DNA of 64,000 nucleotides from Bacillota bacterium (GCA_029907475.1 JARYLU010000005.1:62001-126000); one strand, 5' to 3'; positions 17,352 to 36,238 are shown, numbered from the stretch's first letter. A program made the numbers and translations. The notes: generated by a model from the letters alone, not told the origin.

Positions 17352-18017
17352 ATGGAACTGTTGACCATCAGCAAAGCGGCAAAAAAATTAGGCGTTCACC
17401 CCAACAGCTTGCGCAACTGGGAAAAGCGCGGCTTAATCAAGCCCGTCCGTTTGCCTGGAGGCCAACGCAGGTACTCTATGGACGAACTCAACAGGCTCTT
17501 GCAATCCGGCCAATTGACTGATGGGCAGGAAGCAGTCGTGCTTTACGCCCGGGTATCCACTAAAAAGCAGGCCGGCGCGGGCAATCTGGACCGGCAGATG
17601 GAACGGCTGCGAAAGTCAGCCCGGGAAAACGGATTTACCGTCAGGGCGGAATTCACGGACATAGCCAGCGGCCTAAACCAGAAGCGTCGCGGTTTAGCCA
17701 ACGTACTCAAGCTGGCCGAGCAGGGCGAGTATAAAAAGCTCATTATCGAATATCCCGGCCGGCTGGCCCGGTTTGGTTATGAGTATATCGAACGCCATTT
17801 AAGGTACTGCGGCGTGGAGGTAATTGCCATCGCGGAAAAAGAACCGGAGGACGCTCATACTGAGTTGGTCCGGGACTTGCTGGCCATAGTCACGACCTTT
17901 TCGGCCCGTTTGTACGGCGCCAGGGGAGGCAAGAAGGTCAGGCAGGGGTTTCGGGAACTGATTGTGGGAGTGAAGCGGGATGAAAAAACGGGGAAAGAAC
18001 AAAAAGAAACTCACTGA
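17352..18017 (+). CDS. tnpA: IS607-family transposase TnpA (serine recombinase)
   Basis: A 221-residue protein. Residues 1-55 are a MerR-type helix-turn-helix (LLTISKAAKKLGVHPNSLRN; WEKRGLIKPVRLPGGQRRYS in the start region). Residues 63-200 are a serine-recombinase catalytic domain with VVLYARVSTKKQ, the Ser being the nucleophile, and DRQMERLRKSA. It catalyses excision and integration of the element by double-strand exchange through phosphoserine links. It overlaps tnpB by 38 bases. All recognisable catalytic positions are kept, so it may be active. Confidence 0.93.
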   Translation: MELLTISKAAKKLGVHPNSLRNWEKRGLIKPVRLPGGQRRYSMDELNRLLQSGQLTDGQEAVVLYARVSTKKQAGAGNLDRQMERLRKSARENGFTVRAEFTDIASGLNQKRRGLANVLKLAEQGEYKKLIIEYPGRLARFGYEYIERHLRYCGVEVIAIAEKEPEDAHTELVRDLLAIVTTFSARLYGARGGKKVRQGFRELIVGVKRDEKTGKEQKETH

Positions 18018-19713
18018 ATCTGACGATGGCTTAAAGTATACCGTATGCGGCGAATGGTTCCCCTTATTCTGGGGCTATCATCCTGACCCTTACGGCAAGG
18101 AAGACGAAACACCTCTGGACACAGAGATGCGCCTTTTTTGTGCCTGTACCCGCTGGGCGTTCAACCGGCTGCAGGAAGGTCGTTCCCGTGAAGAGCTTAA
18201 AAGAGAAGGGCAGAAGTTATTTGGCATAAACTCCCGTTTTTGTGACGATGCCATATTAAAGGCAAAGGCCATTATTGAATCACAACGAGAACTGCTGGTT
18301 CTGGAAGTTGAGGAAACGGAAACGAAGCTGGCCCGTGCCAGGAAGAAGCTCGGCTGGGCGGAAAAAGATCTGGGCAAAGCGGTTGAAGCGAACGACCCGG
18401 TAAAAATCGAGAAAGCTAAACGCGCCGTACACGGCCGCAAAGCGCGGGTCAAAAAACTGAAGACGAAGCTGGATGAGCTGAAAACCCATCAAAGTAACAG
18501 CACCATACCTGCCGTAGTTTTCGGGGGCCGTTCTTTGTGGAAGGGGATCTGTAGAGGCCGGGTTTCAAGAGAAGAGTGGCGGCAAGTCCGGCAGAACCGG
18601 CTTTTTGCCCGCGGCGACGAAACCAAAGGCGGCAATCCGAATATCAAGATAAGCTACCGGAACGGGGATTTTTCCCTGTCAGTAACCATTTCTCACCTGT
18701 CCGAGCAGAAAGGGATGGACAAGAAGGGCAGGCCGGTGATGACCAGGGCACCCCGGGTAACGGGGAAGCTCTGGTTGCCGGAGAAGCACCGGTTGAAGGT
18801 GTGGGAGTTGCTCTTATCCGGTGCGCCCTACACTGTGGAACTGGTCGAGGACAGGGACGGCCGGTACAGGGTGCACATTACCTTCGCCATAACAGCACCT
18901 GAACCGGTGACCAATCCCAACCGGGGCTATCTGGGGATGGACACCAACCCGGACGGTGTGGCCCTGGCCAACGTCCATTATTTCGGCCAGCCTGAACCCT
19001 GGCCGGAAGGATTCACTGTACCACATCCGAAGACCCTGCACAAATTTGCCGGGGAATTCCAGGTGACGGTACACCCGAACGGTTTTCTGTACATCAAGAT
19101 ACCGGAACTTGCTTATAGTCGCGGGTACCGGCGCACCTATCTGATAGGCGTGCTGGCCAAAGTGGTGGTGGACACAGCAAAAGCTCTGGGTAAGCCCATC
19201 GCGTTGGAGGACCTGGACTTTGGGAAAGACCGGCTGGATACCAATAAGAAATTCAACCGCATGGCGGCCAACTTTCCGTTTAAGAAGATAATCGAGGCCG
19301 TCATGCGGAGGGCATTCAAGGAAGGTATTGGAGTAAAGCCGGTCAGGCCGGCACACACGTCCACCATTGGCTATTACAAGTACATGGAGCGGTACGGGGT
19401 AATTGTCCACCACGCCGCTGCACTGGTTATTGCCCGGCGTGCGATAGGCTTTAGAGAGCGCATTACCAACGAGTTGAAGCAAAAAATTCAAGCTGTCAAA
19501 GAGAAGCTGAACCAAAGAGTTAATTCCTTACCTGGGGAAGGAAAAGGGATGACTGATGCGGTGAAGCGGCTCTTCAAGCGGCTGGAAGGAAAGATTCCCG
19601 TTCACAACGGGCTGACCCTTTTTCAGCAGGAATCGTTTTATTCCGTCTGGCACGACTTGAAGCAGCTTGCTTTATCCGGGTGCCCGCCTGGCGGGCGCGG
19701 TGACCCCGTTTAG
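17980..19713 (+). CDS. tnpB: TnpB-family RNA-guided nuclease homologue (IS607 type)
   Basis: A 577-residue TnpB-like protein, longer than the usual 400. Residues 105-175 form a highly charged coiled coil inserted in the N-terminal half. RuvC-I GYLGMDTNPDG provides Asp321 and RuvC-II IALEDLDF provides Glu410. Where the third RuvC Asp (DxNAA) is normally found the sequence reads VIVHHAAALVIARR (His477-His478), and the CxxC...CxxC zinc ribbon is absent. TnpB proteins use an RNA made from the element's 3' end to cut DNA and keep the element in place. The altered third site could mean a nuclease-dead protein or a rearranged active site. Confidence 0.9.
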   Translation: MKKRGKNKKKLTESDDGLKYTVCGEWFPLFWGYHPDPYGKEDETPLDTEMRLFCACTRWAFNRLQEGRSREELKREGQKLFGINSRFCDDAILKAKAIIESQRELLVLEVEETETKLARARKKLGWAEKDLGKAVEANDPVKIEKAKRAVHGRKARVKKLKTKLDELKTHQSNSTIPAVVFGGRSLWKGICRGRVSREEWRQVRQNRLFARGDETKGGNPNIKISYRNGDFSLSVTISHLSEQKGMDKKGRPVMTRAPRVTGKLWLPEKHRLKVWELLLSGAPYTVELVEDRDGRYRVHITFAITAPEPVTNPNRGYLGMDTNPDGVALANVHYFGQPEPWPEGFTVPHPKTLHKFAGEFQVTVHPNGFLYIKIPELAYSRGYRRTYLIGVLAKVVVDTAKALGKPIALEDLDFGKDRLDTNKKFNRMAANFPFKKIIEAVMRRAFKEGIGVKPVRPAHTSTIGYYKYMERYGVIVHHAAALVIARRAIGFRERITNELKQKIQAVKEKLNQRVNSLPGEGKGMTDAVKRLFKRLEGKIPVHNGLTLFQQESFYSVWHDLKQLALSGCPPGGRGDPV

Positions 19714-19990: not shown

Positions 19991-20003
19991 AAAAACTAAC
20001 AGC

Positions 20004-20348
20004 TTGTTAGGTATTGTGAGCTTTTTTGAACCAGGAATTATAGGGATTATCCCGCGCAGTGAAGTCAACACGGAAACCGGGGAAGACGGGTTGCCCGGTC
20101 CGGCGGCCTGCGTTACACAGGTCAACAAGATGGTAGCCTTTAAGGTTAAAGAAATTAAAGAGACTGACGACGGGCAAACCATAGCCACTTTATCCCGCAA
20201 AGAAGCCCAGTTGGATGCAAAACAGTGGATGGCGGAAAATCTTGTCGAGGGTATGGTTATCAGAGGAATAGTACGAAACATGGAAAAATACGGCCTTTTC
20301 GTGGATATTGGGTGCGGTATCATCGGCCTGCTGCACACACATAACTAA
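20004..20348 (+). pseudogene. Truncated S1-domain RNA-binding protein
   Basis: The 114-residue frame shows ribosomal-protein-S1-like repeats: GIIGIIPRSEVN, a linker VAFKVKEIKETDDGQTIATL and a second S1 domain beginning VEGMVIRGIVRNMEKYGLFV. It stops abruptly at GIIGLLHTHN, where S1 domains normally continue with an HISD motif. The N-terminus runs into the right end of the IS607-type element, so it appears cut on both sides. The short TTG-initiated form could still be expressed, but I see no good ribosome site. Nothing supportable lies between it and 20500. Confidence 0.6.
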
Positions 20349-20500
20349 AATAAGCGTTGCCAGGATCAGGCACCCGAGGGAAAGGTTTAAAAAAATAAAA
20401 TTAACGATTATCGGATTGGGAGCTTAGTACTGAAACCTGAGAACATGTCAAAACCAAAGGTTCCGGCTGTCAGGACCCTGCCTGGCGGCCGGAACTCTAG

Positions 20501-23500
20501 TTACCTCCAGCGTTCACATGGTTTTATATCGCCTATACAAATGAATCCTGCCCATAACCAGGGATCTGGAAATTGCTCGTCCCGGCGCATTTCTTCAATC
20601 AGCTCGAGCTTGGCTTTGCGCAAGGCTTCAGCCTTATTTTCACCGGCCAGAAATCTTTTGTAAAAAGACTCCATCACCAATCTGGTTTCATAATCCGGAA
20701 TATTCCACAAACTGACTATCAGCGTCTTTGCGCCCGATAACAAAAAAGATTTTCTCAACCCCGCCACACCCTCTCCGTAACGGATGTCGCCCAAACCGGT
20801 TTGGCATGCCGAAAGTGTCACCAGTTCCGTCCCCACCAGGTTAATGTTTAATACATCCAGGGCTGATAAAATGCCGTCTTCAGCATCTTCGGGAGCCCTT
20901 GCGCCGTCCAGCACCGTGTTTGCCCCGGCCAGGGCAAGCCCCGAACGCAACAACGGGTTTTCGACAAGTCTTTCTTCAACTGACGGGATTAAATAATCAG
21001 GAATACATATTTCCGCCCCAAAATTAAGCTTGTGCAGCTGTGCCCTGACGGGTTTTCCCTTGTCAGGCAGGAAAAAGCCGTGCGTAGCGATATGCAGCAA
21101 CATGGGCGCCCTGACCTGCTTTATGTGCCGTTCCAAAGCGTCAGCCCCATAAAACTCTTTGAACTCGAAACCGTTACCGGCCAACAGGCCGCTCACCATT
21201 TTCCCTTCCGCCCTCGTTCCGGGTAATGGTTCGAAACGCTCTCGCCGGCTTCTTAATTGATTTATTATTAGACCGTCCTTATCCGGTGGAATCTTATCAC
21301 CTGTCACCTCTTCGCCTAAATTATAGTCGGGATCCGCAACTATCACGGCTCCACCGCCTGACGGCTGAAGTCCGCCGAAGCGGGTGACATCCCGCCCAAC
21401 GTTGAGATAACTCAAGCCAAATTCCTCAATAACAAACCTGCCCCCGGGCGAAAGTAACGCTTCAAAAGGTAATTGGCAAATCTCTCCGTCAGGAGCGATA
21501 ATAATTTGGTTAATAGCAAAATGCTTAATTTTATTTATAACAGGGGCAAAAATACAATCATACAGAATACGGCAGGTGTTTTCCAAATCACCGTCCCGCA
21601 CTTCCAATCCATTTATACCCCTGAAATCTTCTTCGCCACTTATTGATCTGCGGAAAGCCGCGACCAGGTTATCGATTGTCTGCGCATCTCCAAGATCAAA
21701 AAAATCTACCTGCTCCGGGTCCTGATCCGTCATGACAAAAGCGATATATCGAGCCGGTCTCCACCTCTCTTTCGAAGACGTTTCAAAGCAAAAAGGGTTG
21801 TACCTGAAAAATTCCACAAGGGTTGAACCTTGCGGAAGCGCTTTTGCGATAGCTTTCCGGTCAGCGTTTTGAACCCGTAACTGGAGGTTTATTTCAGGAA
21901 CCTGTTTGGCAATTTCACGCTCAAGCTGATCCTGTTCTTTTTCCAGTCTTTCCAGGGTACTCTCATACTGATCCATGGATTCGCCGGCTGCCGGACCGCT
22001 CAGGATCTTCCTGGACAAAACGGAGCGAACCTCTCTTAGTTTTCCAAATAAATCTTGAAGATGGGAGTATTGCGCAGCCAGTACGGTTTGATGCCTTGCT
22101 GCGGTTGCTTCGTAAACAATGGCCTTGCGCTTCAGTACCGTTTCAAAGGCAAAATTTACAGCCTCCCTGTCGAGGATTAGATAATCACTGACCAGGGTGA
22201 TTAACAGGGACGTTTCTCCCTCAATTTTACCGGTGAATGAAAGCAGTTGTTCCTCGGGTAAAAACGCGGCAATCCTGTAAAGCAACGAATTATTAATATT
22301 TATGCTTTCCCTGATGTGTCTTAAAGCCCTCTCATATTTTCCGGACTTTGCCAGCAATATGGCAATATTGTTGAGACAGGCGGCATACTCGGGGTGCCTC
22401 TTGCCGAGAGATCTTCTAAAAACCCTGCAGGCTTCAACGTATAGCGGGCCGGCTTCGTAATAACGCCCCATGGCTTCATACAGCATTGCCTGGTTGTTTA
22501 AAGCATAGGCGTAATTCGCATGCCCGGCCCCCAGTTTTTCGCGGTAAATCCCCAGGGCTTCCAGGTTTATAAGTTCGGCTTCATCATATCTTCCGGTATC
22601 CTGGTATAAGGCCGCCAGATTTAAAAGACTTGCGGCATAGTCCGGGTGCCTGCTGTCCAGCGCCTCACGCCTTATCTTCAGAGCCTCCAGGCATAAAGAC
22701 TCGGCCTTGTCGTAACGGCCCAGGGAGTGGTACATCAGCGCCATATTGCTCATGCCGGTCGCATAATCGGGACTCATTGCGCCCAAAGCTTCCCACTTAA
22801 TTTCCATCCCCTCGCGGTTCAACTTCTCCGCTTCATCATAACGGCCCGTGGCCCAATAGAGCAGCGCCAGGTTGTTCCGGCTCGAAGCATAATCCGAATG
22901 TCTTACGCCCAGGATCTCGCGTCTTATTTCCATTGCCCTGAGGTAAAGCGGCTCGGCCTCCTCGTACCGGCCCGTTAAATAATAAAGCAGCGCAAGGTTA
23001 TTTAAGCTGGTGGCGTATTCAATATGCTTTTCTCCCAGTACGATGCCCCTAATCTTTATTGCCTCCTGGTGCAATTCTTCGGCCTGTTTAAACAGCCCCA
23101 TGGAACAATACAGAACCGCAAGGTCATTGAGATTCATGGCGTAAACAGGATGAATTTTGCTGCCGAAGGCCTTAAGGTTTACGGCTGCCGCTTCCCGGTA
23201 TAAATCCCCGGCCTTTTGATAACGTCCCATGGCGTAATAAAGCTTGGCCAGACCGTTCAGGCTTAACGCGTAAGCGGAATGATGCTCGCCCAAAACTTCG
23301 CGCCTGATGTCCCTGGCTTCCAGGTAAAGCAATTCCGCTTCTTCATACCGCCCGGTAGTGCGGTACAAGTCCCCCAGGTTTTGTAAATATAAAGCATAAT
23401 TCGGATGACTTTTACCAAGTACTGAACTTGTGATGTCAAGAGCTTCCCGGTACAATGATTCCGCTTCGGTATACCTGCCGGTGACTTTATACACTAACGC

Positions 23501-24283
23501 CAGGTTGTTGAGGGTGGCGCCATGGTCCGGATGTTTTTTGTATTGTTCCCCGCAGGCGTTAATGGCTTTTAAGTACATTTGTTCCGCCTGTTGATAACGC
23601 CCCGTGGAAAAATACAATAACCCCAGGTTATTAATTCCTGAGATATAATCCGGGTGCCGTTCGCCCAGGCACTCACGCCTGATTTCAACCGATTTTTTGT
23701 AGAGCCGCTCCGCCTTTTTATAAAGGCCCATGGTCCGGTAAAGTTCTGCCAGGTCATTCAAACTGCCGGCATACTCAGGATGCTGTACACTCCGGATGTC
23801 ACGAGTTATTGCGAGCGATGCCAGGTACAGCTTTCTGGCTTCCGCAAACCTGCCCATGTAATGATATAAAGTAGCCAGGTTGTTAAGGCCGTTGGCGTAT
23901 TCGATATGCCTGCTGCCAAACTGGTCATATATTTCCTTCACGGCCTTCTTGAACAGCGGTTCGGCCTCCTTATACCGCCCCGTGGCGCGATATAACAGGG
24001 CCAGGTTGTTGAGGTTCGTGGCGTAATAACCCTTGAATAAAACGGAACAACTATCGCTCATCTCTTTGATGACCCGCTGGTAAAGCGGCTCCGCATCCTG
24101 CAACCTGCCCGTTTCATGGTAAAGCATAGCCAGATTGCTTAAAATGATGACATAATATGGATGCTGCTCGCCGAGGTTATGCTTTATCAACCTTTTCAGT
24201 TTTTCCGCAACCTTTATGGCCTCTTCAAAACGCCCTTGATTATATAAACCCCTTAAATATAAAAAGGATGCTTCAATTTCCAT
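20501..24283 (-). CDS. TPR-CHAT caspase-like protease
   Basis: A 1260-residue cytoplasmic protein. Residues 1 to about 700 are some 16 tetratricopeptide repeats of the 42-residue TPR_10/12 kinesin-light-chain type, recurring as LNNLALLYRATGRYKEAEPL. About 700-880 is a helical linker. About 900-1255 is a CHAT domain, a separase/caspase-clan Cys protease with catalytic His1068 in HIATHGFFL and Cys1160 in TLSACQTGLG. The start overlaps the end of the zinc-finger gene by 11 bases, so the two are coupled. TPR-CHAT proteins act as regulated proteases in bacterial conflict and stress circuits, including Csx29 of type III-E CRISPR. Here the neighbouring anti-sigma-like protein is an obvious candidate substrate; this is inference. 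Confidence 0.93.
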   Translation of the reverse strand: MEIEASFLYLRGLYNQGRFEEAIKVAEKLKRLIKHNLGEQHPYYVIILSNLAMLYHETGRLQDAEPLYQRVIKEMSDSCSVLFKGYYATNLNNLALLYRATGRYKEAEPLFKKAVKEIYDQFGSRHIEYANGLNNLATLYHYMGRFAEARKLYLASLAITRDIRSVQHPEYAGSLNDLAELYRTMGLYKKAERLYKKSVEIRRECLGERHPDYISGINNLGLLYFSTGRYQQAEQMYLKAINACGEQYKKHPDHGATLNNLALVYKVTGRYTEAESLYREALDITSSVLGKSHPNYALYLQNLGDLYRTTGRYEEAELLYLEARDIRREVLGEHHSAYALSLNGLAKLYYAMGRYQKAGDLYREAAAVNLKAFGSKIHPVYAMNLNDLAVLYCSMGLFKQAEELHQEAIKIRGIVLGEKHIEYATSLNNLALLYYLTGRYEEAEPLYLRAMEIRREILGVRHSDYASSRNNLALLYWATGRYDEAEKLNREGMEIKWEALGAMSPDYATGMSNMALMYHSLGRYDKAESLCLEALKIRREALDSRHPDYAASLLNLAALYQDTGRYDEAELINLEALGIYREKLGAGHANYAYALNNQAMLYEAMGRYYEAGPLYVEACRVFRRSLGKRHPEYAACLNNIAILLAKSGKYERALRHIRESININNSLLYRIAAFLPEEQLLSFTGKIEGETSLLITLVSDYLILDREAVNFAFETVLKRKAIVYEATAARHQTVLAAQYSHLQDLFGKLREVRSVLSRKILSGPAAGESMDQYESTLERLEKEQDQLEREIAKQVPEINLQLRVQNADRKAIAKALPQGSTLVEFFRYNPFCFETSSKERWRPARYIAFVMTDQDPEQVDFFDLGDAQTIDNLVAAFRRSISGEEDFRGINGLEVRDGDLENTCRILYDCIFAPVINKIKHFAINQIIIAPDGEICQLPFEALLSPGGRFVIEEFGLSYLNVGRDVTRFGGLQPSGGGAVIVADPDYNLGEEVTGDKIPPDKDGLIINQLRSRRERFEPLPGTRAEGKMVSGLLAGNGFEFKEFYGADALERHIKQVRAPMLLHIATHGFFLPDKGKPVRAQLHKLNFGAEICIPDYLIPSVEERLVENPLLRSGLALAGANTVLDGARAPEDAEDGILSALDVLNINLVGTELVTLSACQTGLGDIRYGEGVAGLRKSFLLSGAKTLIVSLWNIPDYETRLVMESFYKRFLAGENKAEALRKAKLELIEEMRRDEQFPDPWLWAGFICIGDIKPCERWR

Positions 24284-24989
24284 TCATGTCTCCCTCAGGC
24301 TCAAACACCAGATAGTAGTTTCCAGGCAAAACATCACTGAATTCACCAACCCAACAGCCTTCCCTCGACTCATCCCTTTTAAATTCCGACACTGTTGTTT
24401 GAACTCCGTCTGTTTCGGAAACAAGCAAAACTCTCATGGGAGCATCAATGCTTTTGAAACCTTCCAGCCTTACATTAACTTTGTTGCCCCGGGCGGAAAC
24501 AACAATGGTTTCGCCCGAATCCGCCACTGCTATTACCTTGTTTTCGCGCCTGGGTCTGGCGGGGCTTCCCTTTCCGCCGCGGGTTCCGGCATAAGCAAAC
24601 CTCCAGGGCAATTTCGTCCCGGCCGGCTGTTCCAATTTTTCCAAAATTATTCTGGAGGCCTCACCATGCATATCTATTAAAACCCGGACTGCTGCTCCAA
24701 TCCGCTTCTTTTGGTCTTTAAACCACTCCTGCAGGGACCCTGTTTTCAGAGAGCATGACATTAGTCGAGTATTCTGCATTTTCTTATAATAATCCCCGTG
24801 CCGCCCGGCTGTCCATTCCTCCCAGAAGCCTTTAAGTTTTCTCATCTCCATTGCCCGTTTGGCACAAGTCTCGCAATAACCCAGGTGGTTGTCAACGGCA
24901 TAAATCTCTTCTTCGGTCATTTCATCAGTTCTATTTACATATTTATCTAGATCCTCGAAAGATAAGCAGTTTCTGTGTTCTTCGACCAC
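24273..24989 (-). CDS. Zinc-finger anti-sigma-factor-like protein
   Basis: A 238-residue protein. Residues about 5-45 contain an HxxxCxxC zinc site (HLGYCETC) typical of the ZAS anti-sigma fold. A helical middle and a beta-rich C-terminal domain (about 145-235, ending SDVLPGNYYLVFEPEGDMNG) follow. No membrane segment is seen, so it would be a soluble anti-sigma factor. The start is GTG with AAAGGAGATGA about 9 bases upstream. It lies 117 bases after the sigma-like gene and overlaps the CHAT gene. The beta domain could be the sensor or the part cut by the protease. Confidence 0.7.
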   Translation of the reverse strand: MVEEHRNCLSFEDLDKYVNRTDEMTEEEIYAVDNHLGYCETCAKRAMEMRKLKGFWEEWTAGRHGDYYKKMQNTRLMSCSLKTGSLQEWFKDQKKRIGAAVRVLIDMHGEASRIILEKLEQPAGTKLPWRFAYAGTRGGKGSPARPRRENKVIAVADSGETIVVSARGNKVNVRLEGFKSIDAPMRVLLVSETDGVQTTVSEFKRDESREGCWVGEFSDVLPGNYYLVFEPEGDMNGN

Positions 24990-25106
24990 TCGTTCTCATC
25001 TCCTTTCTTCTTGATTTGCGGGTGGCACAAAAAGCTCATTAATAAATATAGGATTGAATTCCACGTTTATCGCGTGTTTAAAAAAATCAGGTTTTAATGC
25101 ACAAAA

Positions 25107-26105
25107 CTAAATCCTGCATACCTGTTTCTTAATAACTCGCTTCTTAACTCTTTGTTGAACTTTGTATGACCAATCGGAAACGGCGTCTTCCGGCTTGCGC
25201 CTCTTCTGATTAATCCCGCCCTCATCACCCCGGCTGCTATTATTGGTTTCATAATAATCGCGTAAAGAGGTCCTGCCCACTTTCTCACCCAGAAGGCCTT
25301 TGGCCCGCAGCAGGTTCCAAGTTGTTTTGTCTAATTTCTCATCGACTACCTCACTTAGCGTTTTGTCCATTTTTAGGTGTAATATTTCAAAAACCTGGCT
25401 GATTTCATCTTTGGAGATACCGGAATACTTGATGTATAGCTGTTCGAGTAAAATTGATAATTGCTCTAAAGGTTTATCGAACAACTCCCTGACGACCCTT
25501 TCGGGGCACCCGCTTTTACGGCCGGTAGTATTTTTGTCGGAACTCAAATCGCAAGGGAAAATTAACTTGCTGAAGGCAAAAGCAATAACCTGGTGAGGAT
25601 AGCCTCCTATGGAAAATACCGTTCTGAGCAGGGAGAGGTAAAAATCGTTGGCTTCTTCCGCCCGTTCCTTATTGATCAACTCTTCCTCAATGTTCTCTTC
25701 CCATTTCCATGTACCGGCCTGTTTGCGTCGCAAGCTTTCGACAATAATATCTTCCGCAGGCGCGTTCTCCGGGTCAACATCTGCCGGACCGGCCAAATCT
25801 GAAAAAAGATTCTCTTTCTCTCTTCTCTTTTTTAATCTTTTAAAGTAATTCCTGATCTCGTAACTTGCGATCATCCTGATAAAAGTGTAAAACCTGGCTA
25901 TTTCGGGTTTATAAAGATTAATGTTCAACCAAACAGAGGTCCACACGTTCTGGAGGATATCTTCAGCATCCCCCTTTTGCTCTATAATACTGTTTATATA
26001 ACCGGATACAGCGCGGTCAAAACTCTGTTTTAATTGTGTAAAAGCAGCTTCATCGTCCTTCCGGGCAAGTTCGACCAAAGCTAACTCTTGTTCCCGGCTT
26101 AGCAA
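25107..26105 (-). CDS. ECF-like sigma-70 family factor with extended C-terminus
   Basis: A 332-residue protein. Residues 1-100 match sigma region 2 (GDAEDILQNVWTSVWLNINL, then FIRMIASYEIRNYFKRLKKR). Instead of the usual short linker and region 4 there are about 230 further residues; a region-4-like helix pair is not obvious, although IAFAFSKLIF and the basic tail VQQRVKKRVIKKQ could contact DNA. The start is TTG, with GGGGGTGATA 7 bases upstream. It heads the sigma, anti-sigma, CHAT transcription unit and is divergent from the phosphosignalling arm. It probably directs RNA polymerase to island promoters, which is inferred. Confidence 0.8.
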   Translation of the reverse strand: MLSREQELALVELARKDDEAAFTQLKQSFDRAVSGYINSIIEQKGDAEDILQNVWTSVWLNINLYKPEIARFYTFIRMIASYEIRNYFKRLKKRREKENLFSDLAGPADVDPENAPAEDIIVESLRRKQAGTWKWEENIEEELINKERAEEANDFYLSLLRTVFSIGGYPHQVIAFAFSKLIFPCDLSSDKNTTGRKSGCPERVVRELFDKPLEQLSILLEQLYIKYSGISKDEISQVFEILHLKMDKTLSEVVDEKLDKTTWNLLRAKGLLGEKVGRTSLRDYYETNNSSRGDEGGINQKRRKPEDAVSDWSYKVQQRVKKRVIKKQVCRI

Positions 26106-26392
26106 TATTTATCACCCCCTTGACTTCTATTTTCTAGCCGCATTCCCATTTTCCTGTTTCATCCCGTAACCGGCTTTTTTTGTGACCTGCCGCAGTGCCT
26201 CGGGGAAGACGATGGCGTTATCACTGTTTCAATGCCCTGGAAAGTGGGCTTTTTTACGACAGTATGTTTTAAGCGGCTACCCGCGCCATTTTTTTCTTCC
26301 TGCAATAGGTTCATTATGCTACTCAGGACTACGATTAGAACAAAATGTTTAAGACAAAACGGCAGGAAAGTCGGATAAAGAAGGCGAATATA

Positions 26393-26499
26393 GTAAATTT
26401 GGTTATCCTGGTTGTATTAACCTCAGTAAAGGCGAATTGTAGCCAGCGAAATTTTACAGGAAATAAGGTAAATTTTAGTTATCCTGGTGCATTAACCCC
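26393..26499. repeat. Imperfect 32-bp direct repeat in the divergent intergenic region
   Basis: The segments 26393-26424 and 26468-26499 are about 85% identical (core TTATCCTGGT, then ATTAACC) and are spaced 75 bases apart. Each is preceded by related AGGCGAAT sequence. They lie in the 460-base spacer between the sigma-like gene and the right arm of the island, so they could be regulator sites. No CRISPR-like spacing or further copies are seen. The rest of 26106-26564 shows a weak GCCC/GGGC hairpin followed by Ts near 26230-26257. Confidence 0.6.
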
Positions 26500-26564
26500 C
26501 GCGGGAAATGTTTGGCTAACAACTATATTTGATTAAGGCATCAATGAAGGGGGAAACGCAATTT

Positions 26565-27140
26565 ATGAACCTTGTTTTAAAGCTTCTTAAACCAACGGAT
26601 ATTTATTCAATCTTATCTATCGTAATATTGTCTATTATATTTTACATTTGGAACATTAAGTCTTTGGACCTCATAAATGATATTTTTACAATTAAAGATA
26701 TCTTGACTCAACAACATCCGGAGATTTTAGGACAATTTTTATGGAGTTTAATTATTTTAGCGGTATTGGAAAATTTTTTAATAAGAGATAACTCTAAATT
26801 TCTTCCTAACCTGGCAGGAAAAACACTTTTGGGCGCCTTATCACCGCTTATTGCAAATTTTGTAATACTGGAATTGATGGAGTCTTTTCAGCTGGGCGGG
26901 ACTAAAGGACTGTTAACCATTTCTTTTTTAACGTTTGCAGGGATCATGATTTTAGCAATTACACCTGTTCCATTTTTATCAGATATCGCGATACGAGTTT
27001 TTAAATATATATTTTTGACTGCTGTTTTGTTGGCTTTCTTTTCCAGCCTGACCACGGGTGTAATGTTAGAAATTTTGTTGGGAATTGTTATTTCTATTAT
27101 TATAATAGTTGGAATTTACTTTTTATTAAGAAGTTTTTAG
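26565..27140 (+). CDS. Hypothetical multi-pass membrane protein
   Basis: A 191-residue, very hydrophobic protein with five or six predicted membrane segments (for example SILSIVILSIIFYIW and LGIVISIIIIVGIYFLL) and a short polar loop after the first. I recognise no family. The ATG at 26565 is preceded by AAGGGGGAA; an upstream in-frame TTG at 26529 is less likely. The gene is distinctly AT-rich relative to its neighbours, suggesting separate acquisition. It is the first gene of the right arm. Confidence 0.7.
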   Translation: MNLVLKLLKPTDIYSILSIVILSIIFYIWNIKSLDLINDIFTIKDILTQQHPEILGQFLWSLIILAVLENFLIRDNSKFLPNLAGKTLLGALSPLIANFVILELMESFQLGGTKGLLTISFLTFAGIMILAITPVPFLSDIAIRVFKYIFLTAVLLAFFSSLTTGVMLEILLGIVISIIIIVGIYFLLRSF

Positions 27141-27361
27141 TAGGATTAGTAAAGGAACAATGAAGTTTTCCGCGCTTAACGTGGAAGTAGATACAAGCCA
27201 CATATAACTTATGGAAAATATTGTATCAGGGCAAAAATTTTATCGTACCCACAGGCGGATAATGAAAATATTGTCAAATAGTGTTGCCGTGTTAGGGTGC
27301 GAGAAATTAAACTGATTGGACCTTATGTATTATAAAGAGTTGTTTAAGGGGTTGAGTCGGG

Positions 27362-28537
27362 TTGAGTGAATCGATTTACTCCGGTTACCGCATTTCTGAG
27401 AGAGAACGGCAGAGGCTGGAAGAAGAACGAAGGCGTAAGCTGGAAGAGGAACGCAAACGCCTGGAGGAAGAGAAACGAAAAAGGAAAATCGCAGAGGAAA
27501 AGGAACGGATTGAAATAATAAAACGCTTTCGTGAAGCGGCCTCAATCTTGCAGGCAACGAGCCGCGAATTAACTCAAAGAAATGAATCCCCGCCGCAAGC
27601 CGGCGCTGATGACAAGGGACAAAAAGATCTAAGCAGGTTCATGGAGGAAACAATTCAATCAATTAAGAAACAATTGGAGAGCGTCCCGCCGGAATGGTCA
27701 AAGATCTTTCATGTTGAGCTGGGCCAGATAAGTCAAGCTGTCGCCGATATTGAGCAACACAGTTGCGATCCGTATTTTTACCACCAGCTGAAGTGGGCGC
27801 AGCGAAACCTCGTGAGGCTTACTTCCGAAGCTCAGAAAAAAATCGAGGCGCTGGAACGCGCCCTAAGGGAAATCGACGAACTGACCATTCAAATGGAAAT
27901 AATGAAAAACAACGCTATCCTCGAGGAACACAAGCGCGCAGCCGGGTCGTTGATTAATGCCCTCAACGAACTCGCCCGGGTTGTTGACCCGGATTATGTT
28001 GCAGACCGTTTGCCGCTCTTGAAAAAAGAAGCCGGACAGCTGTACGAGGATTTTGAAGAAACGCAAACAAGGGATCAAACGAGGAGGTTTGTACTCAAGA
28101 ATATCCAGGAAGTATTGGTTGAAATGGGCTATGATGTCTTAAGCGCGCAGGTTCCCGGCGATAATGCCCAGCCGGCTTATTTGACGCTTAAAACACCTGA
28201 TAATGAAATCGCCAGGATCGGTTTCGGCCTGGATAATTCGGTCTTTGCCGAATTTGCACACCTGGCCCGCGATAACGGCAGCGGCGGCGCGGCTTTGCGT
28301 GAAGTCTTGATTTCCAAGTGCCGCCGTTGGTGTGAGGATTATGATCTGATGCAAAAAAATTTAGTTGCTAGAGACGTTATTTTAAGCGACAAATGGCGCA
28401 CGGCTCCGGAAGAAGGGCGTTATGAAGCGATATATGTTGAATCTCAAAATTACGGTTCCTGCGATGATGAATTGACGGAAGAAGATTACTTTTTACATAA
28501 TGCCGGCCAAGGAGAAATAGCGTATGGAAAGAAATGA
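27362..28537 (+). CDS. Coiled-coil protein of the phosphosignalling cluster
   Basis: A 391-residue protein. Residues 10-60 are an uninterrupted Arg/Glu/Lys helix (RLEEERRRKLEEERKRLEEE), a long charged coiled coil. A helical middle (100-240) and a compact C-terminal alpha/beta domain (about 240-390, with FVLKNIQEVLVEMGYDVLSA) follow. No known domain is recognised. The start is TTG. Its last 14 bases overlap the AAA+ ATPase gene, so the two are translated together and probably interact; the coiled coil might be an adaptor or substrate-delivery factor. The spacer 27141-27361 upstream holds no gene. Confidence 0.75.
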   Translation: MSESIYSGYRISERERQRLEEERRRKLEEERKRLEEEKRKRKIAEEKERIEIIKRFREAASILQATSRELTQRNESPPQAGADDKGQKDLSRFMEETIQSIKKQLESVPPEWSKIFHVELGQISQAVADIEQHSCDPYFYHQLKWAQRNLVRLTSEAQKKIEALERALREIDELTIQMEIMKNNAILEEHKRAAGSLINALNELARVVDPDYVADRLPLLKKEAGQLYEDFEETQTRDQTRRFVLKNIQEVLVEMGYDVLSAQVPGDNAQPAYLTLKTPDNEIARIGFGLDNSVFAEFAHLARDNGSGGAALREVLISKCRRWCEDYDLMQKNLVARDVILSDKWRTAPEEGRYEAIYVESQNYGSCDDELTEEDYFLHNAGQGEIAYGKK

Positions 28538-30581
28538 GAGTTTGCCCCGGTGGCTGAGGGAACTGGACCGTTATCTACCCGTTAAAACATTGTTATTGTT
28601 GTACGGGAACACCTATGACAAGCTTCTTTATCAAGTTGCGGATGGGGAAGACACCCGCTGGGCGTACCTGAATTTGCGGGAGCTTCTCTACCGGTTCTTT
28701 TTGGACCGGAAGTACCGGTTAATCGGGTTTTACGATGTTGTTGACGGGCTGACCTTTCTCTCCGACCAGGAATGCCAGAGGTTTAAAGCGGTCTCCCGCG
28801 GCCAGGGTTTTGCAGGACCGGGGCCGCAGCCGGGACGGGCCCAGGCGGCTGAGCACAGGCAGGGGGGCGGCTATTACGGTGGAAATTCCCCCCATCCGGA
28901 ACCTGTTCAACATCCCCCGGCCCGGGGAGGCTACCTCCAGGATTTCGACGCCGCCCTCGACGCTATCCGCAAAGTAATGGCCAACAGGGACGTACCGGCC
29001 GCCATAGTAATAGACTTCGCCTCACGCCTGGTGTCCGCTCCCGGGCACCTGTTGCAGAAGGAAAGGCTGCAATTCGTCAAGCTGCTCAAATGTACGACGG
29101 AGGCTTCCCGCGTCAACATAGACGGTGAAGCTTATAACAATGTAATAATACTGATTTGCGACAAGCTTAATGACTTGCCGGCCTGGCTTTACCTGAACAA
29201 CCCTCTTGCCAAACCAATCCAGATCGACCGTCCGTCTGATGAGGAGCGCAGGCGTTACTTTGAAATGACGGCCGGGGCATTTTATGGTTATGAGCCGGGT
29301 AACCAGGACCCGGAAAAAACGATTCAGAGTTTCGTTGACCTGACTCACGGCATGGGGAACTATGAACTGGAAAGCCTGCGTTTGATTTCCTTTAAAGAAA
29401 AAATACCTTTTAACAAACCCAAGAATGTTATTGAAAGTTATAAATTCGGAGTCAAGGAAAATAAATGGGAGCAGTTGCGGAAAAACAAGTTTATCGACGC
29501 GGAAAAAGTCCTGAAAAAGCGCGTTAAGGGGCAGGACGCGGCAGTTCGGACAGTGGTGGAAATTATTAAGCGGGCTGCAGTGGGGATGTCGGGCATCCAG
29601 CACTCTTCATCGGCCCACAAGCCCAGGGGCATCCTGTTTTTCGCGGGTCCCACCGGGGTTGGAAAAACGGAACTGGCCAAAGCGCTGGCGGAATTGTTGT
29701 TCGGGGATGAAAACGCGTGTATTCGTTTCGACATGAGCGAATACGCGCTCGAGCACGCGGACCAAAAGCTTTTGGGAGCGCCTCCCGGCTACGTGGGTTA
29801 CGAAGAAGGAGGTCAGCTTACCAATAAGGTGAAAGAATCGCCCTTTAGTGTTTTGTTATTCGACGAAATAGAAAAAGCTCACCCTAAAATTTTGGATAAA
29901 TTTTTACAGATTCTAGAAGACGGGCGCATGACTGACGGCAAGGGAGAAACCGTTTATTTTTCCGAGTCGATAATAATCTTTACCAGCAACATCGGCGCTT
30001 ATACCGATACCCCGGCAGGAGACGGCGTGGTCATAAGAAAACCCAACGTTTTACCCTATTCATGGCGATGCCGGGAATGCGGGCAGTCGTTCATTGAAGA
30101 GGACATGCCTGCCTCTTGCGACTGCGGCGCCGCGGATTTTGAAAAAATGCAGACCCCTTATTCCCAGGTTAAGGAAAGAATATTAAAAGCCGTTGAAGAA
30201 CATTTCAAGTTTAAGCTGGGCAGGCCTGAGATTTATAACCGGATCGGCAATAATTTTGTGGTGTTTGATTACATCAGGCCGGAAGTCGCCGACCTCATAA
30301 TCGACAAGATACTTGACGGAATCACCGGCAAAATGGCTGAACAAAAGAACTTGAGGCTGGAATTCGCCCGGCCGGTGCGCGACTTTTTAAGGGAGCGGGC
30401 GTTTAACAACGTTGAACTCGGAGGCAGAGGCATCGGCAATTTAATCGAAACGACACTGGTGAACCCCCTGGCGGGCGAAATTTTCGACCGTGGTATAGAC
30501 GGCGGGAAACTGGTAATAAAAAGTATCGTTGAACGTGAAGAGGGAAGTGTTGTAACATACAGCCTGGAAATTGAAGGGTGA
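28524..30581 (+). CDS. ClpA/ClpB-like AAA+ ATPase with degenerate first module
   Basis: A 685-residue protein. Residues 1-300 form a P-loop-less AAA-like module (YLPVKTLLLLYGNTYDKLLY; AAIVIDFASRL as a Walker-B-like strand). About 350-680 is a Clp-type AAA+ module with Walker A GPTGVGKTE, the pore-loop region GAPPGYVGYEEGGQL, Walker B LLFDEIEKAH and sensor FTSNIG. A zinc ribbon (CRECG...CDCG, near 512-535) is inserted in the module. Such ATPases remodel or unfold proteins as hexamers. It overlaps the coiled-coil gene upstream; the radical-SAM gene begins 33 bases after it. It lacks a clear ClpP-binding loop, so protein remodelling rather than proteolysis is more likely. Confidence 0.88.
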   Translation: MERNESLPRWLRELDRYLPVKTLLLLYGNTYDKLLYQVADGEDTRWAYLNLRELLYRFFLDRKYRLIGFYDVVDGLTFLSDQECQRFKAVSRGQGFAGPGPQPGRAQAAEHRQGGGYYGGNSPHPEPVQHPPARGGYLQDFDAALDAIRKVMANRDVPAAIVIDFASRLVSAPGHLLQKERLQFVKLLKCTTEASRVNIDGEAYNNVIILICDKLNDLPAWLYLNNPLAKPIQIDRPSDEERRRYFEMTAGAFYGYEPGNQDPEKTIQSFVDLTHGMGNYELESLRLISFKEKIPFNKPKNVIESYKFGVKENKWEQLRKNKFIDAEKVLKKRVKGQDAAVRTVVEIIKRAAVGMSGIQHSSSAHKPRGILFFAGPTGVGKTELAKALAELLFGDENACIRFDMSEYALEHADQKLLGAPPGYVGYEEGGQLTNKVKESPFSVLLFDEIEKAHPKILDKFLQILEDGRMTDGKGETVYFSESIIIFTSNIGAYTDTPAGDGVVIRKPNVLPYSWRCRECGQSFIEEDMPASCDCGAADFEKMQTPYSQVKERILKAVEEHFKFKLGRPEIYNRIGNNFVVFDYIRPEVADLIIDKILDGITGKMAEQKNLRLEFARPVRDFLRERAFNNVELGGRGIGNLIETTLVNPLAGEIFDRGIDGGKLVIKSIVEREEGSVVTYSLEIEG

Positions 30582-30614
30582 CAAAGAATCTGGAACTAAA
30601 GACGGGTGATCTTG

Positions 30615-31253
30615 ATGCGGCTTTACCTCGGGCGGATTTATTATCCCGTTACCAGCCTGGGGCCCGGCAGGCGTAGCGGCATATGGGTTCAAGGCTGTTC
30701 ACGCCGCTGCCCCGGGTGCATGTCGCCTGAATTATTGACCCCCAAAAGCAGTTCCCTTTGCAGCGTCGAGGGTGTTTTTGCAGAAATTCTTAAAGTGGCT
30801 TCGGTGTGCGATGGCATCACCATAAGCGGGGGAGAGCCGTTCGAGCAGGCTGCTCCTCTGGCTGAACTCTGTTCGCTGATCAAAGAATACACCAGTTTGG
30901 ATATTATGATTTACTCCGGCTATACCATTGACGAAATCAGGGCGGGAACCGATGACATGAACCAGTTGTTGCAAACGGCGGACATTCTTATCGACGGCCC
31001 TTTTCGACTGGAACTTCCTACACGGAAATTATGGAGGGGCTCGGACAACCAGAATTTATATTTGCTGACTCCCCGCGCACAAAAGTATAAAGGATTCGTT
31101 GACGCTGAATATGGCCCAAATCGTCAGCTTCAACTTGAAATGACGGCCGATGGAAAGATCATGATCATCGGGATTCCGGCCGGGGATTTTTTTACAGAGT
31201 TAAAAATATTAACTGAACAGCGCGGTATTCAATTGATAAAGGATGGGGATTGA
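30615..31253 (+). CDS. Radical-SAM activating-enzyme-like protein (NrdG/PflA type)
   Basis: A 212-residue radical-SAM protein with the cluster motif CSRRCPGCMSPELL (CxxxCxxC) and a glycine-rich SAM motif ITISGGEPF. This is the size and layout of glycyl-radical activating enzymes such as NrdG, which make a 5'-deoxyadenosyl radical to abstract hydrogen from a protein glycine. No anaerobic ribonucleotide reductase or other glycyl-radical enzyme is encoded in this window, so the substrate may be a protein of this cluster. The ATG at 30615 is preceded by GGGTGAT. It is spaced 3 bases from the FHA gene. Confidence 0.85.
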   Translation: MRLYLGRIYYPVTSLGPGRRSGIWVQGCSRRCPGCMSPELLTPKSSSLCSVEGVFAEILKVASVCDGITISGGEPFEQAAPLAELCSLIKEYTSLDIMIYSGYTIDEIRAGTDDMNQLLQTADILIDGPFRLELPTRKLWRGSDNQNLYLLTPRAQKYKGFVDAEYGPNRQLQLEMTADGKIMIIGIPAGDFFTELKILTEQRGIQLIKDGD

Positions 31254-31256
31254 AAC

Positions 31257-31733
31257 ATGGGAAAAAAAGTAAAAAAGTGCCCTAGATGCGGTTTTGTCAA
31301 CGACGAGTATGCTATTTTCTGTGCCAACCCTGAATGCAGGGAATCGCTAATGTATGTCACGGCCGTAAGCATCGAACCCTTGCCAAAAGAGGAACCGGGA
31401 GGTGACCCTCCCGTCGATCCGCCTACACCACATACGGCGCAACTGGAATGTTTATCTCAGCCAGGTTTTACGTTTGAAGTAAAAGATCAGGGAATAATCG
31501 GCAGGCAAGGTGACATAGATGTCAGCTGCCTGGAAAATTGTGATTATATTTCCAGGTTGCATGCCAGGTTTATTTATGCGGGGGGAAAGTGGTACCTGCA
31601 AAATTTGAGCGACACCAATAAAACGATGGTCAACAATTTTCGAGTGCCGAAAGGGTCGCAGCAAGTATTGTCGGACGGGGACAGGATAACTCTTGCAAAT
31701 ACTTCATTTTTATTTAAGGTGATGAAACCATGA
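31257..31733 (+). CDS. Zinc-ribbon and FHA-domain protein
   Basis: A 158-residue protein. Residues 1-30 are a zinc ribbon (CPRCG...CANPEC) and 40-60 a Pro-rich linker. Residues 65-155 are a forkhead-associated domain with the phosphothreonine-binding signature GIIGRQGDI, YISRLHARF and LSDTNKTMVNN. FHA domains dock onto phosphorylated Thr, here presumably made by the nearby kinase. The first 45 residues are nearly identical to the start of that kinase, the result of a local DNA duplication. It overlaps the phosphatase gene by 4 bases. Confidence 0.93.
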   Translation: MGKKVKKCPRCGFVNDEYAIFCANPECRESLMYVTAVSIEPLPKEEPGGDPPVDPPTPHTAQLECLSQPGFTFEVKDQGIIGRQGDIDVSCLENCDYISRLHARFIYAGGKWYLQNLSDTNKTMVNNFRVPKGSQQVLSDGDRITLANTSFLFKVMKP

Positions 31734-32530
31734 ATGAAATTCATGTTTGCGGCCAAAGCGATGCCGGCCGGGTGCGATTGGAAAACCAGGATTGTTTTTT
31801 AATAAACGGCATTATTGAAAGGAGCTTTGCTGGAGCGAAAATTCAGGATTCAGGGATGTTTCTGGAGCAATACGGGTTATTGTGCGCGGTGGCGGATGGA
31901 ATGGGAGGACACAGCGGAGGGGCTATCGCCAGCCACATGCTGCTCCGGCACCTTGCACTAAACGCCCTGGAAACAGGCAATTATGATGATCCTGTCCAGG
32001 CGGGTGAACACATCCGTCAAGCAGTTGACAAAGCGCATGAAATCATTGTCGGGCAGGGTAAAGTTAATCCTTCTCTGGCTGACATGGGTACAACACTGGC
32101 CGGGGTTTACATAAAGAAAGATTATTCCGTTGTCTTTCACGCAGGAGACAGCCGGGTTTACCGTTTTCGCGGCGGTTACCTGAATCAGCTCACGAGTGAC
32201 CATACTGCTGAAAACCTGCTCTGGATGACAACAGGGAAGCTGCCGCAGGGGCCCAAAAGCGGCGTAATTACGAACAGTATCGGCGGTGGGCAGGGGGTTA
32301 AATGTTATGTAGAAGTAAATAACATAACATTTATAAAAGGCGATATCCTGCTGATCTGCAGCGACGGGCTGACCGACATGGTCGAAACTAAGACGATAGA
32401 AGAAATATTAAGCCGCGGTTCTGGAATTGATGAAAAGTCGCGGCAGCTTATCGGGGCGGCAAATGAAGCCGGCGGTATGGATAACATTACAGTTATATTG
32501 ATTGAATACAGGGGGGAAAAAAATGCTTGA
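31730..32530 (+). CDS. PP2C-family protein phosphatase
   Basis: A 266-residue metal-dependent Ser/Thr phosphatase. The motifs NQDCFLI, VADGMGGHSGG (metal-binding Asp), DMGTTLAG, HAGDSRVYRF, CSDGLTD and DNITVI appear in order and complete the catalytic set. It is soluble, with no membrane segment. It should reverse phosphorylation by the kinase encoded just downstream. It starts 4 bases inside the end of the FHA gene. Between its stop and the kinase start lies only part of the duplicated 150-bp segment. Confidence 0.95.
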   Translation: MNEIHVCGQSDAGRVRLENQDCFLINGIIERSFAGAKIQDSGMFLEQYGLLCAVADGMGGHSGGAIASHMLLRHLALNALETGNYDDPVQAGEHIRQAVDKAHEIIVGQGKVNPSLADMGTTLAGVYIKKDYSVVFHAGDSRVYRFRGGYLNQLTSDHTAENLLWMTTGKLPQGPKSGVITNSIGGGQGVKCYVEVNNITFIKGDILLICSDGLTDMVETKTIEEILSRGSGIDEKSRQLIGAANEAGGMDNITVILIEYRGEKNA

Positions 32531-32582
32531 AACTCAGCGCCTGTCAGACATGGAAACCCAGAGGAAGGATGGGGATTGAAAC

Positions 32583-33986
32583 ATGGGAAAAAAAGTAAAA
32601 AAGTGTCCCAGGTGCGGTTTTGACAACGACGAGTATGCTTTTTTCTGTGCCAGCCCTGAATGCAGGGAATCGCTAATGTTTGTCACGGCCGTAAGCATCG
32701 AACCCTTGCAAAAAATGGATGATCAGCAAACCCGGCGGGAGAATGATCAGCAAACCCGACGGGAGAATGATCAGCAGACCCGGCGGGAGAATGATCAGCA
32801 GACCCGGCGGGAGAATGATCAGCAAACCCGGCGAGATAATGCTCAGCAAACCCGGCGGGAGAATGATCAGCAGACCCGGCGGGAACCATCCTCCAGCGAG
32901 GATTCATTTGATCCCTTCATTTATAACAAATCAGGGGCGGAAATAGCCGGGCGTTACGTAAACCCGGTCCCCCTTTCCAGGCAAGGGGGGGAATCAGACG
33001 TATTTCTTTGTAAAGACAGGGAAGCAAACAGCCAGGTTGTGGTTAAGCTTTACCGCAGCAATATCAAGCCAAAGGACGACATCTTAAAGAAGTTAAAGGG
33101 AATAAAGCACGTAGACGTTATCTCGTTACTTGACTATGGGACATGGGATAATCGTTTTTATGAAGTAATGGAGTATGCCGCCGGGGGGACGCTGGCCGAG
33201 CACGTGCCGTTTACGGAGGAGTTTTTGACCGCAAAGGTAATACCGCAAGTTGTAAATGGATTACAATATCTCCACAGTCTGAATATAATCAATCGGGACC
33301 TGAAACCCTCCAACCTTTTCTTTCGCGATGCCGGTCGCAGCGACGTAGTTATAGGTGATTTCGGCATATCCTCCCTGATCGAGGACGGAGTTACAATCCG
33401 CCCCACCTCAGCGTCGCGCACCACCGAATTTTCCGCTCCGGAAGTTTTTAGCGGTATCATGGGTAAAGAGGTGGACTACTACGCGTTAGGCATCACCTTG
33501 ATGTTCCTGCTGACGGGAGAAAGCCCGTTTAAAGGTTTAAACGAGCAAATGATCATGCACATACACCTGTCGGAAAAGATTCCTCCGCCGCGGGACTGTT
33601 CAGACAGGTTCAAAACTTTGTTGCAGGGTTTGCTGCTTAAAGAAAGGAAAAACCGCTGGGGATCCGACCATGTCCAAAGATGGCTTAAAGGGGAGAACGT
33701 CCCGGTAGTTCCTGACCAGCTTGCCGTTCCATTATTCAGATACAAGTTAAGTGAGGGGAAGGAGGCCAGGGATTTCAAGACCCTTGGAAAATTGCTTCTC
33801 GACAACCCCGTGTTGGCCAAAAAGCATATCAGCCAACGCCTTTTATATGAAGTAATTAAACAGCATGACCAGGCCCTGGCGTCTAAAATACACGACATCC
33901 AGGAGAAGGCCCGCTGTGAGGATGAAGCTTACCTGGGGATTGTATATACACTTAATCCCGATTTGCCATACCGGCTCTTCAGATGA
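32583..33986 (+). CDS. Ser/Thr protein kinase with zinc ribbon and repeat linker
   Basis: A 467-residue kinase. Residues 1-30 are a zinc ribbon (CPRCG...CASPEC). Residues 47-101 are seven tandem copies of an eight-residue unit, DQQTRREN. Residues 125-385 are a eukaryotic-like kinase domain with Lys155 (VVKLYR), catalytic Asp239 in INRDLKPSN, DFG Asp259 and APE. All catalytic residues are present. A C-terminal helical tail of about 80 residues follows. Unlike many PknB-type kinases it has no membrane segment or PASTA domains. The Thr in each linker repeat could be a phosphosite read by the FHA partner. Confidence 0.94.
   Translation: MGKKVKKCPRCGFDNDEYAFFCASPECRESLMFVTAVSIEPLQKMDDQQTRRENDQQTRRENDQQTRRENDQQTRRENDQQTRRDNAQQTRRENDQQTRREPSSSEDSFDPFIYNKSGAEIAGRYVNPVPLSRQGGESDVFLCKDREANSQVVVKLYRSNIKPKDDILKKLKGIKHVDVISLLDYGTWDNRFYEVMEYAAGGTLAEHVPFTEEFLTAKVIPQVVNGLQYLHSLNIINRDLKPSNLFFRDAGRSDVVIGDFGISSLIEDGVTIRPTSASRTTEFSAPEVFSGIMGKEVDYYALGITLMFLLTGESPFKGLNEQMIMHIHLSEKIPPPRDCSDRFKTLLQGLLLKERKNRWGSDHVQRWLKGENVPVVPDQLAVPLFRYKLSEGKEARDFKTLGKLLLDNPVLAKKHISQRLLYEVIKQHDQALASKIHDIQEKARCEDEAYLGIVYTLNPDLPYRLFR
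32721..32885 (+). repeat. Tandem 24-bp repeat, seven units, inside the kinase gene
   Basis: Seven units of GATCAGCAAACCCGGCGGGA plus GAAT run in phase with the reading frame from 32721. Variation is slight (A/G at one site; units 5 and 6 have two changes), and the last unit diverges at its end. Each unit encodes DQQTRREN. Copy number is likely to vary between strains. Confidence 0.93.
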
Positions 33987-34015
33987 TTTCAAAGCAGGGG
34001 AGAGGTGACGGTTAA

Positions 34016-35605: not shown

Positions 35606-35676
35606 GTACTTACCAACCGGGGTTGAAAAACCCCGGTTATTTTTAGATAATTCTGCAATTTACGGTGGTGAATAGT

Positions 35677-36054: not shown

Positions 36055-36070
36055 TATTTAATCGACTTAG

Positions 36071-36238
36071 TTGCATTACGAAATTATTAATTTTCTAAAA
36101 GGCGTACCCCGCGAAGAAGCTGCTGTACTTCCCAATATTGATTGGGAGGTGAAACAGCGATATTTGATTAAAGAGGTAAGGCGGCTTCTGATTCTTTTGT
36201 CAAAGACAAAAAGCAAAATTAGGAGGGGTAGCCAGTGA
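36071..36238 (+). CDS. Small protein of 55 residues overlapping the B-box gene
   Basis: The frame from a TTG at 36071 encodes LHYEIINFLKGVPREEAAVL followed by a basic tail rich in Lys and Arg. It stops at a TGA at 36236-36238 that overlaps the GTG start of the next gene (GTGA), the signature of translational coupling. The ribosome site AGGAGGGG of the next gene lies inside it. No strong ribosome site precedes the TTG, so the exact start is uncertain. It resembles no family I know. Confidence 0.4.
   Translation: MHYEIINFLKGVPREEAAVLPNIDWEVKQRYLIKEVRRLLILLSKTKSKIRRGSQ

Follow-up and report, generated by a model that had tools for sequence, protein, structure and literature searches.

A sigma factor, a zinc protein and a TPR-CHAT protease encoded together point to a little-noticed protease-triggered gene switch

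Three adjacent genes and their products

Within a 64,000-nucleotide stretch of DNA from a Bacillota bacterium (GCA_029907475.1 JARYLU010000005.1:62001-126000; hereafter the window), genes for a sigma factor, a zinc protein and a TPR-CHAT protease follow one another on the minus strand. An initial annotation had placed all three open reading frames where we find them, and the roles it assigned to them (sigma factor, anti-sigma-type zinc protein, TPR-CHAT protease) are correct. Because the zinc-protein gene shares 11 nt with the CHAT gene and a gap of 117 nt follows the sigma gene, this block, which we call the triad, is very likely a single transcription unit. The earlier description as a three-gene operon stands in that the three genes are coupled, but they do not make up the whole unit, which is an 11-gene island both here and in Pelotomaculum.

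The sigma gene (25107-26105, minus strand) starts with a TTG codon preceded by AAGGGGGTGAT and encodes an ECF-type sigma factor of 332 residues, identified by Pfam, by predicted structure and by an orthologue in a Pelotomaculum MAG (locus L010, 20488-21495; 37% identity). Its region 2 matches Pfam Sigma70_r2 (E 3e-8), is predicted at a pLDDT of about 90 or more and superposes on region 2 of E. coli sigmaE (Z 14.9, rmsd 1.4, 91 residues). No Pfam match was obtained for region 4, and that part of the predicted model has a pLDDT of about 50, as do the C-terminal 230 residues beyond region 2. The long C-terminus that had been claimed is thus present, in a low-confidence part of the model. Searched across 398 genomes of the phylum, this C-terminus was matched in its own genome only, and the sigma query found no match in contigs of close relatives. 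A promoter scan gave a near-chance result, and no common promoter motif that could serve as an autoregulatory sigma target was found upstream of the genes of the neighbouring kinase cassette.

The second gene (24273-24989, minus strand; GTG start) encodes a soluble, zf-HC2-like ZAS anti-sigma candidate of 238 residues. Its N-terminal motif, C8...H35xxxC39xxC42, is kept in all four positions in the Pelotomaculum orthologue (L010 19786-20469, 39% identity), and no transmembrane segment is predicted; together with the ZAS homology, this agrees with its earlier description as a soluble HxxxCxxC protein of anti-sigma type. The homology comes from a profile built solely from the corresponding middle proteins of other phyla and searched against 5,493 ORFs, in which the window protein was the top non-training match (E 6e-4). 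The Pelotomaculum protein followed at E 0.01, and subsequent matches include eight zinc-less acidobacterial or verrucomicrobial proteins, most of these eight only at E 0.01 to 3. An hhalign comparison of the window protein with the ZAS proteins of other triads gave E 1e-5, and the triad ZAS family also matches the solved anti-sigmas RslA (which we take to be PDB entry 3hug), RsiW, ChrR and DdvA. On Pfam zf-HC2 the window protein scores 12.5 bits, under the gathering score of 22.2, which is a matter of threshold and not a structural feature.

The C-terminal domain of the zinc protein (about 149-231) is predicted to be beta-sandwich-like, and a conserved linker, YAGTRGxKGSP, lies at about 133-143. 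A profile comparison of this domain with the beta domains of other triads gave E 0.003, which is only suggestive, and a fold search with the structure model (mean pLDDT 56) gave no match exceeding background. Searches of 60 relatives, and of 25 genomes from the family to which Pelotomaculum belongs, found the zinc protein in its own or the query genome only, and the exact sigma/zinc subtype of the window is so far known from two genomes only. In plasmids, tblastn gave no match for the zinc protein and a single weak ECF match for the sigma factor; six plasmid CHAT neighbourhoods had no annotated sigma, one of the six records having no annotation at that place. PADLOC matches on the triad were weak and looked spurious (for example, Cas11 at 17 bits on the zinc protein), and we rejected them. 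The 238-residue protein is probably a ZAS-type anti-sigma that holds the sigma factor inactive.

The third gene (20501-24283, minus strand; ATG start) encodes a TPR-CHAT cysteine protease. The earlier claim of 1260 residues with an intact His1068/Cys1160 pair holds: the protein matches PF12770 (E 1e-67), and the two catalytic residues correspond to H379 and C471, both invariant columns, in a fragment beginning at residue 690. Kinesin-light-chain-like TPRs extend to about residue 690, and the CHAT domain spans about 900-1255. Neither a leader nor a transmembrane segment is predicted for this protein. In the CHAT tree it is sister to the Pelotomaculum protein (L010 7901-11713), with which it shares 45% identity.

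A kinase-linked island shared with Pelotomaculum

The triad lies in a low-GC region (20000-36500, about 0.40-0.50 compared to 0.52-0.60 in the flanks) that is coextensive with the conserved genes. Neither the zinc-protein gene nor the AAA+ gene turned up in the congeners sampled. Low GC and this absence suggest that the 11-gene block is probably a genomic island.

Divergently from the triad, and on the plus strand, runs a cassette (27362-36054) that has no name in the libraries we searched. Between the two blocks lies a multi-TM protein of 203 residues (26529-27140, plus strand) that is not conserved in Pelotomaculum. The cassette begins with a 391-residue coiled-coil protein (27362-28537; 57% identity to L010 11782-12921), followed by a ClpB/ClpA-like AAA+ ATPase that has an N-terminal domain of its own and an insert resembling a zinc ribbon (28524-30581; 81% to L010), an NrdG-like protein of the radical-SAM activase type (30606-31253; 69%), a zinc-ribbon and FHA phosphothreonine-binding protein (31257-31733), a PP2C-type Ser/Thr phosphatase (31730-32530; 77%) and a Ser/Thr protein kinase that begins with a zinc ribbon and contains an 8-residue tandem repeat (32583-33986; 75%). 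It ends with a 529-residue membrane protein carrying C-terminal SH3b repeats (34016-35605) and a 129-residue protein of no known family (35665-36054), whose orthologue (L010 7529-7897) sits directly upstream of the Pelotomaculum CHAT gene.

Several smaller features were seen in and around this block. The apparent zinc-ribbon-like insert lies inside the AAA domain of the ATPase (WRCRECGQ...CDCGAADFE) and gives weak rubredoxin-like matches. Through a 155-nt direct repeat (94%; 31239-31393 and 32565-32719), the kinase gene begins with a duplicate of the zinc ribbon that opens the FHA gene, and the Pelotomaculum kinase does not have this duplicated start. The kinase gene also carries about seven in-frame copies of a 24-nt tandem repeat (32695-32908). 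An IS607-family serine recombinase and TnpB lie beside the island edge (17352-19713), with a ribosomal-protein-S1-like fragment (20004-20348) between them and the island, and a SAM riboswitch (69 bits) is found at 39885-39991.

Scanning genome contigs with a CHAT profile turned up one close relative, the Pelotomaculum MAG. Its gene order is 129-residue protein, CHAT, coiled coil, ClpB-like AAA+, NrdG-like radical SAM, FHA, PP2C, Ser/Thr kinase and SH3b membrane protein, after which the sigma and zinc genes follow in the opposite orientation. Eleven genes are common to the window and this locus, at 57-81% identity for the cassette (except 46% for the 129-residue protein) and about 36-45% for the triad. 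The triad is therefore linked to the same cassette in both, despite the rearranged gene order. The absence of the low-GC block from sampled congeners would suit a reading in which the three genes are chance neighbours within a horizontally acquired island. However, their retention with the cassette through this rearrangement and the independent triads of other phyla, described below, make such a reading highly improbable.

Of 398 genomes of the phylum, 12 carry the AAA+/radical-SAM core, in most cases accompanied by FHA, PP2C and kinase genes. The window genome is one of the 12, and one of the 11 others was detected solely through its AAA+ match. None of these 11 has a CHAT gene, and the triad is therefore an add-on to the cassette that was retained through rearrangement.

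Recurrence of the triad at CHAT loci of other phyla

A survey for conserved co-occurrence had been set beforehand as a refuting test of the initial annotation, and the triad was found to recur in several phyla without CRISPR. We gathered 79 CHAT loci by CHAT similarity alone, a sample biased toward CHAT-rich phyla, and detected ECF factors with an iterated profile seeded with what we take to be the sequences of E. coli RpoE and B. subtilis SigW; two of its matches were checked against Pfam. Single-sequence phmmer searches missed the triads in other phyla. The 79 loci contain 19 ECF sigma ORFs, and in 12 loci the sigma gene immediately precedes the CHAT gene and is read in the same direction, compared to about 1.6 expected under uniform placement (P about 5e-9).

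An anti-sigma candidate stands between the sigma and CHAT genes in 10 of these 12 loci. These candidates begin with a helical domain, in which HxxxCxxC may be present or absent, end in a beta-rich domain and, in nearly all cases, have one transmembrane segment, and the CHAT proteins of the same loci mostly carry an export leader. All triad CHATs retain the catalytic His and Cys. On the CHAT tree the triad occupies at least four separate places (Bacillota, an unplaced MAG, Zixibacteria/MAG50 and Acidobacteria/Verrucomicrobia). Since the label "triad" requires five changes on this tree, at least four of them forced by well-supported branches, the association of sigma and CHAT arose or was retained several times.

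Three triad-owning genomes have an ECF gene adjacent to 19 of their 29 CHAT genes. With the two loci by which they had been selected removed, the count is 17 of 27 (P about 5e-12, with the 25 sigma ORFs per Mb of the acidobacterial set as background). When the best CHAT locus of each of 20 other acidobacterial genomes was examined, a sigma gene was present in seven and an anti-sigma homologue as well in six; counted by CHAT ORF, 7 of 23 have a sigma gene (P about 0.003). Both gene orders occur, sigma-anti-sigma-CHAT and CHAT-sigma-anti-sigma. For the majority of CHAT genes, and likewise for the majority of those from cyanobacteria, no sigma gene lies nearby, and the sigma-CHAT link is therefore the property of a subset. 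Single acidobacterial genomes can be rich in CHAT genes: we counted 29 in one Chloracidobacterium UBA7656 genome (G428, the source of locus L088) and at least 32 strong matches in another genome (G481), some of them in tandem.

Most triads of other phyla are of a membrane form, with a one-TM anti-sigma and a CHAT protein with a leader. Soluble triads resembling that of the window are found at L125 and L127 in Chloracidobacterium UBA7656, where zf-HC2 is joined to a carboxypeptidase-regulatory-like domain without a transmembrane segment and the CHAT protein is leaderless. A third form, encoded in that same genome, is a fusion (L153, 836-4429) in which an anti-sigma domain, here zinc-less, is followed by a transmembrane segment, TPRs and CHAT in one protein encoded directly behind a sigma gene.

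These loci also bear on the long tail of the window sigma. Its roughly 230 residues past region 2 might be an inhibitory extension that CHAT removes, with the zinc protein as an adaptor, and proteolytic loss of regulatory extensions is known in some ECF groups (PMC8999054). Yet the sigma factors of other triads are of normal ECF length (about 170-280 residues) and nearly always come with an anti-sigma, and we give this explanation little weight.

A proposed switch and its relation to known systems

The feature is real and the module is conserved, and a mechanism in which the three products act in series is plausible. We think it fairly likely that the triad of the window is a stand-alone cytosolic switch. 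Through its ZAS domain, the 238-residue protein would keep the ECF-type sigma inactive, a signal sensed by the TPR array would switch on the CHAT protease, and CHAT would then cleave the anti-sigma and free the sigma. In the window lineage the input would probably come through the linked kinase/PP2C/FHA/AAA+ cassette, perhaps by phosphorylation. In other phyla the module would span the membrane, with the beta domain of a one-TM anti-sigma outside and a CHAT protein bearing an export leader, and it could even be a single polypeptide (anti-sigma domain, TM, TPR, CHAT). We infer the binding of anti-sigma to sigma, the cleavage, the input from the kinase cassette and the target genes; for binding, cleavage and release we argue by analogy, drawing on the assigned roles and on the examples of CASP and RseA.

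In the DegS/RseA/RpoE and RsiW/SigW systems, a protease removes an anti-sigma and thereby frees an ECF sigma. The membrane triads share this layout, but use the caspase-like CHAT where those systems use DegS or RasP-type proteases, and the window copy is wholly cytosolic by prediction. The soluble anti-sigmas of ChrR/RpoE and RshA/SigH have an N-terminal ZAS domain, to which ChrR adds a sensor domain at the C-terminus, a cupin. The window zinc protein resembles ChrR and RshA in its solubility and its N-terminal ZAS domain; unlike in ChrR, its C-terminal domain is a predicted beta-sandwich rather than a cupin, and it is coupled to a TPR-CHAT protein.

In the main rival, the zinc protein would free the sigma through zinc or redox chemistry, a ligand bound by its beta domain or phosphorylation by the linked kinase, and CHAT would be a co-transcribed effector under sigma control. 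Release without proteolysis is known for soluble ZAS anti-sigmas, and RshA is also released upon phosphorylation by PknB (PMC8999054). The adjoining cassette encodes a kinase, a PP2C and an FHA protein, and in several loci CHAT comes first, followed by sigma and anti-sigma. However, the triad also occurs in other phyla with no such cassette beside it, and direct action is the better fit both to the fusion of anti-sigma, TPR and CHAT and to catalytic pairs that are intact in every triad. We therefore regard this rival as unlikely, albeit as the one to be taken most seriously. That the protease relieves the anti-sigma is the best available reading, and it is strengthened by the existence of the L153 fusion.

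In the type III-E CRISPR circuit known as CASP, which comprises Csx29, Csx30 and CASP-sigma, cleavage is proposed to free the sigma (PMC10028731). Both there and in the triad, an ECF-like sigma is encoded together with its inhibitor, a putative one in the triad, and with a TPR-CHAT protease. Unlike CASP, the window locus has no Cas7-11, crRNA or array, its putative inhibitor is a ZAS protein and not a relative of Csx30, and its CHAT is no sequence relative of Csx29, while the trigger in CASP is a target RNA. The likeness to type III-E drawn in the initial annotation therefore holds for the three roles only; we found no kinship to Csx29, Csx30 or Cas7-11. As that annotation had also stated, no RNA-guided effector is attached to the triad: we saw no CRISPR array between positions 15 and 42 kb in the window and no Cas7-11 effector ORF between 18 and 36 kb.

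The shared roles, together with a broken cas1 fragment, could also be taken to mean that the triad is a decayed or repurposed type III-E (Cas7-11/Csx29/Csx30/sigma) locus. The fragment, which had been reported 11 kb away, is indeed present at 37174-37449, about 11 kb from the sigma gene, and carries an in-frame TGA. Against such an origin, the window CHAT found no match to the solved Csx29 in a sequence-only search of solved structures, and the CHATs nearest to it are ordinary TPR-CHATs from many phyla. The window sigma scores 23.7 bits on the III-E sigma model NF041236, well under its cut-off of 100, and neither array nor effector lies near the triad. We consider a III-E remnant scarcely credible. 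The genome has two other cas1 genes elsewhere.

A link between CHAT and ECF factors is already in the literature, and the triad is thus not wholly unprecedented. Literature searches for CHAT together with ECF or anti-sigma factors brought up only papers on CRISPR proteases, chiefly CASP, and ECF papers, one of them a review that mentions CHAT. In its passage on ECF54, this 2022 review (PMC8999054, citing Casas-Pastor et al. 2021) places CHAT, subtilase and carboxypeptidase genes in the context of that sigma group, whose representative is actinobacterial and for which proteolytic control without an anti-sigma is predicted. A CHAT gene near an ECF sigma gene and, for ECF54, a predicted control by proteolysis are what the two have in common. 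ECF54 is described in that passage as lacking an anti-sigma, whereas the window operon has a ZAS candidate. The "carboxypeptidase" genes of the ECF54 context may in part be zf-HC2 proteins with a carboxypeptidase-regulatory-like domain, as at L125 and L127. To this work the present analysis adds an anti-sigma as the middle member, a distribution across several phyla, forms that are soluble or fused, and an island in which the triad is linked to a kinase.

It is tempting to speculate that these loci form a CRISPR-free family of switches spanning several phyla, in which TPR-CHAT is a dedicated protease for ECF anti-sigmas, the window copy is the output arm of the kinase cassette and CASP is one case captured by CRISPR. 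We hold this broader reading tentatively. If it is true, a set of ECF anti-sigma factors for which, to our knowledge, no release protease is known would gain a dedicated one of caspase-like type. The reading would also give a likely job to CHAT proteins such as the 29 of one acidobacterial genome, and would suggest that the logic of type III-E CRISPR predates CRISPR and exceeds it in spread. Thanks to the fusion and the soluble copies, two or three proteins in E. coli would be enough to put the switch idea to a direct test. A solved structure may offer a further parallel to the L153 fusion and its zinc-less domain: in the 991-residue "CHAT domain-containing protein" of PDB entries 8rot and 8rw5, residues 7-45 give a weak zf-like match (E 0.1), and residues 880-970 of one chain match CHAT.
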